NCBI RefSeq assembly: GCF_021284745.1
Contig: NZ_CP089925.1
Coordinates: forward strand, 930,001-994,000
Direction of reading: 5' to 3'
DNA from: Lysobacter sp. KIS68-7
Lineage (GTDB): Bacteria > Pseudomonadota > Gammaproteobacteria > Xanthomonadales > Xanthomonadaceae
Length of the DNA: 64,000 nucleotides
Shown here: positions 5,021-8,118 of the stretch, in pieces
Numbering within the stretch: position 1 is the first letter of the stretch
Layout: each line of letters begins with the position of its first letter
Position numbers and translations under genes: made by a program
The notes under the pieces: model-generated
Told to the model about the DNA's origin: nothing
Databases searched by the model: none
Seen by the model: only the letters and a program-made list of their open reading frames with translations

Positions 5021-6913
5021 TCAGGCCACGCGCGTGGCGCGATGCCGCGCCAGGTGCACGAGCAGCAAGGAGATCGCCGCCGGCGTCATGCCCGGGATTC
5101 GTTGCGCCTGGCCGATGGTCTGCGGGCGCACGCGTTCGAGCTTCTGCTGCACCTCGGCGGAGAGGCCACGCACGCTGGCGTAGTCGAAGCCTTCGGGAAT
5201 CGGCGTGGTTTCGTGGCGCTGCTGGCGTGCGATTTCGTCGCGCTGGCGGTCGAGGTAACCGGCGTACTTCACGCCGATCTCGACCTGCTCGGCCACCTTC
5301 GCGTCGTCGACGCCAGGCGCCAGCGAGGGCAGCGTCATCAATTTGGTGTAGTCGAGCTCGGGGCGCTTGAGCAGGTCGAGCGCGTTGGCTTCGCGGGTGA
5401 GCGCGACGCCGAGGGTGGCTTCGAGTTCGCGGCCGAGGGCGTTCGACGGCGTCGCCCACGCGGCACGCAGGCGCTGTTCTTCGGCAGCGATGGCCTCGCG
5501 CTTGGTTTCGAAACGCGACCAGCGCGCGTCGTCCACCAACCCGAGTTCGCGACCGACGGGCGTGAGGCGCGCATCGGCGTTGTCTTCGCGCAGCTGCAGG
5601 CGGTATTCGGCGCGCGAGGTGAACATGCGATACGGCTCGTTGGTGCCGTGCGTGATCAGGTCGTCGACCAACACGCCGAGGTAGGCCTCGTCGCGGCGCG
5701 GCGACCAGCCCTCGCGCTGCTGCACGAAGCGCGCGGCATTGAGCCCGGCGAGCAGGCCTTGCGCCGCGGCTTCTTCGTAACCGGTGGTGCCATTGATCTG
5801 GCCGGCGAAGAACAGGCCGGCGACGGCCTTGGTCTCCAGTGTCGACTTCAGGCCGCGCGGGTCGAAGAAGTCGTATTCGATCGCGTAGCCGGCGCGCGTG
5901 ATGTGCGCGCGCTCGAAGCCGCGGATCGAACGCACGAGGTCGAGCTGCACGTCGAAGGGCAGCGAGGTGGAGATGCCGTTCGGGTAGATCTCGGTGACGT
6001 CGAGGCCTTCGGGTTCGACGAAGATCTGGTGCGAGGCCTTTTCCGCGAAACGCACCACCTTGTCTTCGATCGACGGGCAGTAGCGCGGGCCGATGCCTTC
6101 GATCTGGCCGGTGTACAGCGGCGAGCGGTCGAGCGCCGCGCGGATGATCTCGTGCGTGCGTTCGCTGGTGTGCGTGATCCAGCAAGAGACCTGGCGCGGG
6201 TGGTCGTCGCGGGAGCCGATGAAGGACATCACCGGGCGCGGATCGTCGCCGGGCTGTTCTTCCATCACGGTGTAGTCGAGCGTGCGGCCGTCGATGCGCG
6301 GCGGCGTGCCGGTCTTGAGGCGATCGACGGCGAAAGGACGTTCGCGCAGGCGCGCGGCGAGCGTGGCCGCAGGCGGATCGCCCGCGCGGCCCGCGGCGTA
6401 TTGCGCCTGGCCGACGTGGATCTTGCCGGCGAGGAAGGTGCCGGCGGTGAGCACGACCGCGGGTGCTTCGAAGCGCAGGCCCGCCTGCGTGATCGCGCCG
6501 CGCACGGTGTCGCCGTCGATGACCAGGTCGTCGACGGCGGACTGGAACACGGTGAGGTTGGGTTGCGCTTCCACCATGCGGCGGATCGCGGCGCGATACA
6601 GCGCGCGGTCGGCCTGGCAGCGCGTCGCGCGCACGGCGGGGCCTTTCGATGCGTTGAGCGTGCGCCACTGGATGCCGGCCGCGTCGGCCGCGCGCGCCAT
6701 CGCGCCGCCGAGCGCGTCGATCTCCTTCACGAGGTGGCCCTTGCCGATTCCCCCGATCGCCGGGTTGCAGCTCATCGCACCGACGGTTTCGATGTTGTGC
6801 GTCAGCAAAAGCGTGCGCGCACCGGCGCGCGCCGCGGCGAGCGCAGCTTCGGTGCCGGCGTGGCCGCCGCCGATGACGATCACATCGTGCTGGTGGAAAG
6901 AAGGAATCGACAT
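5021..6913 (-). CDS. mnmG: tRNA uridine-5-carboxymethylaminomethyl modification enzyme MnmG (GidA)
   Basis: The 630-residue length is normal for the family. The FAD-binding motif GGGHAGTE lies at about residues 15-22, and the family signatures SCNPAIGG and [19 protein letters not shown] are present. With MnmE, MnmG installs the carboxymethylaminomethyl group on U34 of certain tRNAs, using FAD, NADH and methylene-THF. I chose the ATG at 6913 ([11 protein letters not shown]). An ATG three codons upstream is also possible, but longer starts add unrelated sequence. Its partner mnmE lies about 25 kb away, on the other side of the origin. The upstream gap carries a separate plus-strand unit. Confidence 0.97.
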
Positions 6914-6966
6914 GGCGCGCATTTTAGGGCGGCGTGGTTGAGGCAGCTGAACGACGCCGGAAAAAC

Positions 6967-6983
6967 TTGGCACGGTTCCTGCG
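6967..6983 (+). promoter_or_regulatory. Sigma-54-type promoter of an orphan transcript
   Basis: The sequence tTGGCACGGTTCCTGCG has the invariant GG (6969-6970) and GC (6981-6982) of RpoN promoters at the right spacing. It gives seven of seven matches to the -24 element TGGCACG and a near match to the -12 element TTGC. The predicted start is about 12 bases after the -12 GC, near 6994. A sigma-70 reading (TTGGCA with TATCCG, only 15 bp apart) is less likely. Enhancer sites would have to lie inside mnmG. Confidence 0.6.
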
Positions 6984-6993
6984 ACTGTATCCG

Positions 6994-7107
6994 TGCACCC
7001 GGAGTGGCAGGCGCTCCACGCGCCGCTGGTGATTGGAACAGGGGCTGGCAAGTACACCCGGGGAAGCGCAGGGGCCGAATGTCGGGGGACGTTCGGCCCC
7101 TTTTTTT
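6994..7107 (+). ncRNA. Candidate small RNA, about 114 nt, orphan promoter and terminator
   Basis: A plus-strand unit lies alone between mnmG (leftward) and a leftward lipoprotein gene, so neither neighbour can use its terminator. It runs from a sigma-54-type promoter to a strong terminator with a seven-T tail, the type of 3' end that Hfq-bound small RNAs usually have. Inside is a perfect 5-bp hairpin (ggcgc/gcgcc, 7010-7014 with 7020-7024). No ORF with a ribosome site is present; the GTG at 6993 would be leaderless. By analogy, RpoN-driven small RNAs such as CrcZ of Pseudomonas report on nutrient state, but there is no sequence evidence that this is a homologue. Confidence 0.55.
7071..7107 (+). 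terminator. Strong rho-independent terminator of the orphan small RNA
   Basis: Bases 7071-7082 pair with 7089-7100 in a 12-bp stem (one G-T wobble, core ggggccgaa/ttcggcccc) with a 6-base loop, followed directly by seven T residues. No plus-strand gene lies between mnmG and this site. Confidence 0.9.
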
Positions 7108-7313
7108 GTCTTTCGTTTCCGCCAAACGCGAAACGCCGCCCTGGGGCGGCGCTTGCTTGTGGGTGGCCGACGCCCCGCGGGGGAGCGGAACAGGGGGGAT
7201 CCGAGGGTCCCCGAGGGGCGTCGACATGGGCGGTTGCCGCAGGCCGCGTCCGAAAGCGACGCAACCTGTCACTTGCGGCCTACTGTGCGACGGCCGTTGG
7301 CGGGACGCAAGCC
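7108..7313. other. Structured non-coding stretch, 3' side of the lipoprotein gene
   Basis: No gene seen. It holds a 7-bp hairpin (cgccgcc/ggcggcg, 7134-7151) followed on the minus strand by a short T-containing tract. A larger perfect 8-bp inverted repeat (gacgcccc 7169-7176, ggggcgtc 7215-7222) is also present. Either may end transcription of the lipoprotein gene at 7314, which otherwise has no terminator close to its stop. Confidence 0.4.
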
Positions 7314-7997
7314 TCAGCGGTCGCCCTGATCTCCATAACGTGACTGGGCTCGCTCCGTGCGGTTCACCTTGGGCCGCGACGCGGGCGCCGGCGGAGGCGG
7401 TGGGGAATAACTCGGCGGCGGCGTGGTCGTGACCTGGCGGATCACCGGAGGCCGCGGCGAGGTCGTGCGGGTCGGCGGAGGCAACGGGGTGATCGAGGGC
7501 ATCGGACGGTCGACGCCATCGATGATTCGGCCGCCATCGGCCCCCGGGAGCGTCGAGATGGGCCGCGGTGCGCGGCGATAGCCACGCCAGGCCACGCCAT
7601 CGTCCGGCGCGTCGAGCGGCACGACGGCGCGATTCGGCCGCGGCGGCGGCAAGGTGCTGCCCGGCGGCGGGCCCGGCGGCGTGTAAGGTCGGTAGTGGTG
7701 CCGGTTGTAGGGGTCGTGGTGGTGGTAGCCGTGGACCCCGTAGTAGTACGGGTTGTACCAGTAAGGCGAATAGGGACCGCCGTAATACCCGTAGTAGCCG
7801 TAGCCGCGGCCGTAATAGCCACCACCGTATCCATACCCATAGCCACCATAGGGATACGCATAGGGCACCACGTAGCCGTACTGGCTCTGCGGGTCGCCGT
7901 AGTAATAGTCCCCGCCACCGTCGGCCTGGTGGTACGAGTAGCTCACGCACCCACCCAACAGGAGGGCGGCTGCGAGCGGAAGAATGCGGATTGTCAT
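7314..7997 (-). CDS. Tyr/Gly/Pro-rich low-complexity lipoprotein, function unknown
   Basis: The protein has 227 residues. The start at 7997 is set by a good ribosome site (aggggg) and a lipobox (MTIRILPLAAALLLGGC, Cys17). The mature N-terminal half is a dense Tyr/Gly/His stretch of YGY and YYG repeats, and the C-terminal half is Pro-rich with poly-Pro runs. No catalytic domain is visible. Such composition suggests an extended surface or periplasmic protein that may self-associate or attach to other polymers, but this is only inference. Low-complexity composition makes homology calls unreliable. Confidence 0.7.
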   Translation of the reverse strand: MTIRILPLAAALLLGGCVSYSYHQADGGGDYYYGDPQSQYGYVVPYAYPYGGYGYGYGGGYYGRGYGYYGYYGGPYSPYWYNPYYYGVHGYHHHDPYNRHHYRPYTPPGPPPGSTLPPPRPNRAVVPLDAPDDGVAWRGYRRAPRPISTLPGADGGRIIDGVDRPMPSITPLPPPTRTTSPRPPVIRQVTTTPPPSYSPPPPPAPASRPKVNRTERAQSRYGDQGDR

Positions 7998-8118
7998 GAG
8001 TGCCCCCTGATGTTGGGGAGATTCCGCCCGCGCCATTGAATTCGCGCTTAATCCCGGCTGATCAGTCGGCCGCCGGTCGCGGCTCGCTGAATCCCGTGCA
8101 CGCGTTTAGCATTGTGCG

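Follow-up and report, generated by a model that had tools for sequence, protein, structure and literature searches.

Stand-alone small RNAs (sRNAs) with sigma-54 promoters include GlmY/GlmZ and CrcZ, and RNAs of the CrcZ type carry several AANAANAA-type Crc/Hfq motifs. Antagonists of sRNAs have also been described: the relevant passage of PMC9731577 presents SroC, a sponge of GcvB in enterobacteria, as a sponge sRNA of an operon with sigma-70 and sigma-54 promoters, and the title of PMC8687705 names a trans-acting sRNA with a cis-encoded antagonist in Campylobacter jejuni. In Xcv, the sRNA sX13 (RF02232) reduces type IV pilus mRNAs, and GGGG motifs have been proposed as the sites that its C-rich loops meet (sX13 passages of PMC3771888). 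Another RNA, asX1, is listed in Rfam as RF02235; PMC4652430 cites a 2012 study for it, and its expression is reported for X. campestris pv. raphani in the asX1 passages of PMC4652430 and for X. fastidiosa in those of PMC12189769. Neither a sigma-54 promoter nor a partner RNA appears in these asX1 passages, and the literature that we searched states no promoter class, regulator or function for asX1, although the original description could contain one.

Here we analyse a window of 64,000 nucleotides from Lysobacter sp. KIS68-7 (host genome 3.25 Mb, single contig), in which a sigma-54-type unit lies beside mnmG. A preliminary description had held that no example of such an RNA was described upstream of mnmG and that the unit had nothing to serve but itself. 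Neither claim is supported: the RNA is Rfam asX1, by a full-length match, with expression reported in two species, and a conserved convergent RNA with a loop-complementary motif is encoded beside it. Like GlmY/GlmZ and CrcZ, asX1 is stand-alone and has a sigma-54 promoter, but the window locus has no Rfam match to these RNAs, and the likeness to CrcZ drawn earlier falters on the absence of any AANAANAA-type motif in 6994-7107. SroC derives by cleavage from the gltI 3' UTR, whereas asX1 has a gene of its own, opposite that of its presumed prey. In the C. jejuni pair, which we take to be CJnc190/CJnc180, the antagonist is encoded at the same place, as with asX1 and its partner, but in cis; between the latter two there is no overlap, and pairing would be by way of loops. 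The partner resembles sX13 in having C-rich loops and differs from it in locus. As far as the literature searched goes, asX1 itself is known; what appears to be new is the class of its promoter, the partner RNA and the likely regulator.

Identity and conservation of asX1

The features of asX1 and its divergent neighbour are listed here with the evidence for each.

5021..6913, minus strand: mnmG (gidA), divergent neighbour of asX1 (ORF, locus comparison)
6967..6982, plus strand: sigma-54 (-24/-12) promoter TTGGCACGGTTCCTGC (sequence; box in homologous loci)
6994..7107, plus strand: asX1 small RNA, Rfam RF02235 (Rfam match, fold, covariation)
7025..7049, plus strand: asX1 hairpin P3 (fold and consensus)
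7035..7044, plus strand: asX1 P3 loop motif GGAACAGGGG (fold, alignment)
7070..7107, plus strand: asX1 intrinsic terminator, with tip GGGG at 7084-7087 and T-run at 7101-7107

At the curated threshold, Rfam gave no match at 6967-7107 and just a tRNA elsewhere. With an E-value threshold, the Rfam and covariance search proposed earlier yielded RF02235 at 6996-7106, over the full length of the model (1-115), with 69.8 bits and an E-value of 2.5e-10, which misses the gathering threshold of 70 bits by 0.2 bit. The corresponding loci of X. hortorum (L123) and S. maltophilia (L134), in which promoter and partner are both present and mnmG is adjacent, as at the window locus, score 126.5 and 91.5 bits, respectively. 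Because the match falls short by only 0.2 bit, and these two homologues clear the threshold, we identify the RNA at 6994-7107, on sequence comparison, as asX1, strictly an orthologue just outside the curated family. Its agreement with the RF02235 structure is seen in the alignment of all model positions and in an RNAalifold consensus of 60 sequences. As a side observation, asX1 is maybe under-annotated in Lysobacter, the gathering score of 70 just missing a clear homologue.

The predicted fold of asX1 has an energy of -58.4 kcal/mol (z -2.73), and 0 of 200 shuffles are as stable. The consensus of 60 sequences comprises a closing stem P1, hairpins P2 and P3, and the terminator, with 32 pairs in total, 21 of which show two-sided changes; paired cells reach 97.1% versus 33.6-44.4% in slid controls, and none of 500 shuffles is as good on any of five measures. 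The internal structure noted in the preliminary description as one small hairpin is real, and consists of two hairpins within a closing stem; likewise, its very strong terminator has the seven T at 7101-7107 and a stem of 14 bp (7070-7083 / 7088-7101), not 12. Among unpaired positions, conservation is highest for GGAACA-GG in the P3 loop and GGGG at the terminator tip, in a 60-sequence set of which part was selected by those very letters; GGAACAGGG occurs in 30/30 blastn-found loci, a set selected without that motif. In the window sequence, the loop bases are just ~10-90% unpaired in the computed ensemble. Divergent loci show drift of the P3 loop, to GAGAACAGGGG in L186, GGAGCAGGGG in L271 and TGAACAGGGG in L273, L274 and L279, and loss or change of the terminator tip (L187, L189, L274, L277, L278, L279).

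A blastn search with the unit at E 0.001 gave matches in 43 of 100 genomes (its own included, and some matches being short or partial), and most of the longer matches start near 6967 and stop near 7107. R1, a model of promoter plus RNA built from 8 sequences, matches 356 of 395 genomes of the family (328 of the 352 good ones), in 47 of 54 genera; the unit is more than a chance arrangement and, with its promoter, hairpins and terminator, is kept across the Xanthomonas/Lysobacter family. R2, a promoter-free RNA model built from 60 sequences, was also run on 26 genomes from other families of the order, where no match falls below E 0.02 (best 0.024). The lack of a usable ORF in the unit is also supported: a 116-codon GTG frame overlaps it, but homologue lengths differ by non-multiples of three, which speaks against coding. 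We rejected a protein-coding reading on account of these indels and of the covarying pairs.

The asX1 promoter and its surroundings

The plus-strand sigma-54 promoter first proposed at 6967 is canonical. TTGGCACGGTTCCTGC at 6967-6982 has GG at 6969-6970 and GC at 6981-6982, with ten bases between them, which is the fixed GG-N10-GC spacing of the class at -24/-12, and it places the predicted +1 of asX1 at 6994, 2 nt from the first position of the Rfam asX1 model (6996). TGGCAYG-N5-TGC precedes the RNA in all 30 blastn-found loci. A core RNA pattern is found at 159 loci (duplicates counted), 126 of which have TGGC[A/G]-N8-TGC, the remaining 33 being chance matches without the box in Streptomyces, Clostridia and other unrelated taxa. 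From the start of the box to the GCAC of the RNA there are 26-29 nt in 125 of the 126 boxed loci and 16 nt in one. By record name the boxed loci are nearly all Xanthomonadaceae, with L048 and L106 given as Proteobacteria and L082 labelled Bacillus subtilis; this last record (JAHREJ010000011.1, Bacillus subtilis SK7B5 by title) probably carries a wrong label or a contaminant, because its contig holds a Stenotrophomonas-type asX1 unit and partner. In a promoter-blind test, five of six divergent loci missed by R1 and found by the promoter-free R2 had the sigma-54 box, the exception being L189, which is without an intact one. The box is also present in 12/12 further loci (as TGGCCC in L279), which are not promoter-blind, their genomes having been picked among R1-positive ones. 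Promoter, structure, terminator and conservation together give strong sequence support to a small RNA with a sigma-54 promoter adjoining mnmG, the core of the preliminary description.

One genome of the family (G038, 2.3 Mb) has no detectable RpoN DNA-binding domain and no asX1 match with either R1 or R2. Loss of rpoN as the cause of asX1 loss was nevertheless rejected, since, of the 14 genomes lacking a first-pass asX1 match, the other 13 have rpoN, and R2 recovers asX1 at E below 1e-3 in 6 of the 14. Inspection of clade alignments by eye for upstream activator sites of asX1 revealed no family-wide motif. A perfect palindrome TGTGA-N6-TCACA, of CRP/Clp type, lies ~57 bp (hand count) 5' of the asX1 start in 8 of 10 aligned Xanthomonas loci (L037, L056, L077, L090, L123, L126, L135 and L143; absent in L125 and L148), and may connect asX1 or mnmG with Clp.

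mnmG adjoins asX1 in 119 of the 126 loci, and 4 of the other 7 have >1.4 kb of upstream sequence without mnmG. A -10-like CCTAAAAT (minus strand, window 6914-6930) lies a few bases 5' of the mnmG ATG, with ATTTTA/ATTCTA in several aligned clades, and this conserved element just before the ATG suggests that the mnmG mRNA is leaderless. Visual inspection of the frames at seven loci showed no downstream MarR gene, which would have provided a link to the Xylella site XF1354.

A convergent partner RNA

Facing asX1 on the opposite strand is a predicted RNA that has no Rfam family, with the following features.

7124..7275 (ends approximate), minus strand: partner RNA, convergent to asX1 (motif, covariation, promoter, model R3)
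7305..7310, minus strand: partner -35 element TTGCGT (clade alignments, promoter pattern)
7282..7287, minus strand: partner -10 element CACAGT (17-bp spacer to the -35)
7167..7225, minus strand: partner main hairpin (20 pairs, 12 with two-sided changes, in 40 sequences)
7187..7202, minus strand: partner loop motif GGATCCCCCCTGTTCC, which includes the complement of the asX1 P3 loop
7124..7151, minus strand: terminator-like hairpin (7151-7134) and T-rich tail (sequence)

In the host genome the partner model R3 matches this RNA with E 1.8e-13, the sequence itself belonging to the R3 training set. The estimated 3' end of the partner is ~16 nt past the asX1 T-run. Across 40 sequences its paired cells reach 94.9% versus 36.9-56.3% in controls, the structure being derived from the same alignment. 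When 94 sequences were folded per strand, the minus strand had 214 G-U and 14 A-C cells and the plus strand 142 G-U and 83 A-C cells, 92 of these 142 coming from one invariant pair; this asymmetry points to the minus strand as that of the partner RNA. We therefore rejected the reading of the downstream element as a plus-strand paralogue of asX1, against which the strand scores of R3 at L022 (79.3 versus 19.2 bits) also speak. A partner promoter, with a TTG-type -35 and a CAA(G/T)CT-like -10, was recognised in 90 of 107 loci versus a shuffled mean of 0.95 and, in a stricter form, in 56 loci versus 0 shuffled, with none matched in the other 17 of the 107; its elements are conserved in the clade alignments.

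No Rfam family covers the partner at its locus in the window, L123 or L134, the three places checked. The sX13 model (RF02232) has no match at the partner locus, the one sX13 of the host genome lying at 843267-843376. sRNA-Xoo4 of X. oryzae, described in passages of PMC3039613, was set aside as a candidate for the partner: its 145 nt is close, but as a single hairpin in a 184-bp gap it is a poor fit. Directly 5' of the partner, on the minus strand, the window has a tyrosine/glycine-rich lipoprotein-like frame (7314-8036) with no Pfam match, and 12 of 126 loci have a similar frame by tblastn.

Complementary loop motifs

The partner loop GGAUCCCCCCUGUUCC includes the reverse complement of the conserved asX1 loop. 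Among the 107 distinct loci with at least 400 nt of downstream sequence, GGAACAGG occurs downstream of asX1 in 106, at offsets of 24-302 nt, and all 106 sites run on as GGAACAGGGGGGATCC; control words of equal composition occur in 1/107 each, and GGAACAGG in the 700 nt upstream in 15/104. De novo, with no motif assumed, GGAACAGGGGGG was the top shared downstream 12-mer, in 29 of the 30 blastn-found loci, the thirtieth (L022) having it upstream on the same strand. When all 109 distinct loci are considered, the motif is downstream in 107 and upstream in L022, and L126, with 21 nt of downstream sequence, is too short to judge. It was also present in 18/18 further loci, some with small variants (GGAACAGGGGGAATCC in L187, L189, L274, L276 and L279; one G fewer in L190 and L191).

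asX1 GGAACAGGG(G) and partner CCCCUGUUCC are perfect complements, over 10 nt in 74/107 and 9 nt in 33/107 loci, counts that are partly built in by the choice of both sites with the motif; independent support for the pairing motifs comes from the control words, the de novo 12-mer and the unselected blastn-found loci. The asX1 terminator tip matches the partner over 6 nt in 106 of 107 loci and 7 nt in one, counts that are likewise partly built in. The loops are unpaired in the consensus folds, so that conserved complementarity in accessible loops, as looked for in an antagonist of an sRNA, is found here, although the asX1 loop is only partly open in the ensemble of the window sequence. Both motifs are almost invariant and no compensatory changes were seen, L271 having only a change that a G-U pair would tolerate. 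The best natural control is provided by L022/L038 (one genome, Lysobacter profundi), in which asX1, lying between mnmG and the partner, is flipped with respect to both; convergence is lost there while the two motifs remain.

sX13 was found at E 0.001 in all 32 family genomes searched, 17 matches being above its cut-off. CCCCTG is contained in 17 of 18 sX13 sequences and TCCCCC in 11 of 18, both complementary to asX1 loops. CCCTGTTC occurs in none of the 18, so pairing of sX13 with asX1 would reach ~6 nt and be weaker than the partner match.

Candidate activator

The host genome encodes five strong sigma-54 activators: NtrC (L161, above the NCBIfam cut-off), a PilR-type regulator (L162, preceded by a histidine kinase), a GAF-type one and two others. 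We take L162 to be PilR from its best hit and the neighbouring kinase; there is no PilR model among its NCBIfam matches. An inventory of seven small asX1 genomes, which left out the L160 class, found PilR-type regulators (63-77% identical) in 7/7. The L163 type is missing from G188 and G205, and G221 and G190, which have intact sigma-54 boxes at asX1, show just PilR and L163-type activators. NtrC was rejected as the activator because these last two genomes, both drafts that may miss genes, have asX1 and its box and show no NtrC. PilR, the type IV pilus regulator, is the most likely activator of asX1, since it is the only activator class common to the seven small genomes inventoried. According to the relevant passage of PMC3224663, NtrC and PilR are the only such activators in X. 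fastidiosa.

Discussion

Our analysis leads us to view asX1 as a sigma-54-induced antagonist, or sponge, of a C-rich-loop RNA, with PilR as its most likely activator, a reading to which we give a probability of roughly 0.52. The sequences themselves show its starting points: a sigma-54 promoter, two structured RNAs, the partner lying on the minus strand, and loop motifs that are complementary and widely conserved. asX1, ~114 nt long, would be transcribed in the host by sigma-54 only when the activator fires. Its P3 loop would then form a loop-loop duplex with the C-rich-loop RNA, which the G-rich terminator tip would join in most lineages. The partner, for its part, would be made steadily from the convergent sigma-70-type promoter and act through its C-rich loop, much as has been suggested for sX13 and GGGG motifs; on a signal that probably arrives via PilR, asX1 would occupy that loop and remove the partner, in the manner of a conditional sponge. 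We infer the direction of this effect and any downstream targets.

The same complementarity would fit a reversal of roles, in which asX1 is an ordinary trans-acting sRNA whose P3 loop acts on mRNAs and the convergent C-rich RNA is its sponge until sigma-54 brings asX1 into excess. A possible mRNA site exists: among the 30 of 54 CCCTGTTCC sites of the host genome that were read for ATG frames of at least 100 codons, one lies at the start codon of gspF (type II secretion, L216), where ATGCCCCTGTTCCGC is an 11-nt complement of the asX1 loop, and seven other complement sites have such an ATG 12-59 nt downstream, taken as internal. However, about one start-site match is expected by chance on our estimate, and the gspF site could be that one. 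The breadth of the partner also sits oddly with a dedicated antagonist of asX1. Of 25 genomes from other families of the order, seven give an R3 match to it with E below 1e-3, always upstream of mnmG, on the same strand and with CCCCCTGTTCC in the loop, whereas R2 gives no match for asX1 at E 1 in six of them and weak ones only in G094 (best 0.024, taken as chance). We consider this reversal unlikely. Its presence in families without clear asX1 makes the partner seem older than asX1, which looks like an added antagonist; the reverse may also apply.

In another reading, the two RNAs would not bind at all, the shared motif would be a relic of a duplicated hairpin and the pair would act only by mutual termination or read-through. 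The motifs do read alike on the plus strand and the genes usually lie tail-to-tail, but the G-U/A-C asymmetry places the partner on the minus strand, and in L022/L038 both motifs are kept with asX1 inverted and no longer convergent, which leaves us to regard a relic as quite improbable. Less probable still is a mainly protein-binding asX1, such as an RsmA/CsrA decoy acting through the GGA of its P3 loop. GGA is present in that loop in most sequences, and the title of PMC7694677 speaks of an RsmA-sequestering sRNA. Against a decoy, only one loop GGA is conserved, and it is missing in some loci (TGAACAGG in L273, L274 and L279; GAGAACAGG in L186). The context preferred by CsrA is not present either.

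Should asX1 indeed be a sponge, antagonist and prey would be two sRNA genes arranged tail-to-tail, with the antagonist placed under sigma-54. More tentatively, and with considerable doubt, a family-wide circuit can be imagined in which PilR, via sigma-54, has a G-loop sponge made against C-loop sRNAs. This sponge would titrate the partner, and perhaps sX13 as well, so that one signal would switch on the pilin promoter and also free the other parts of the pilus programme from post-transcriptional repression. For asX1, the analysis adds a putative promoter, a likely regulator and a putative binding partner; the partner itself would be an RNA new to Rfam, upstream of mnmG and reaching beyond the family. 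If the sponge reading is true, the C-rich-loop sRNAs of the family would be tied to surface sensing.
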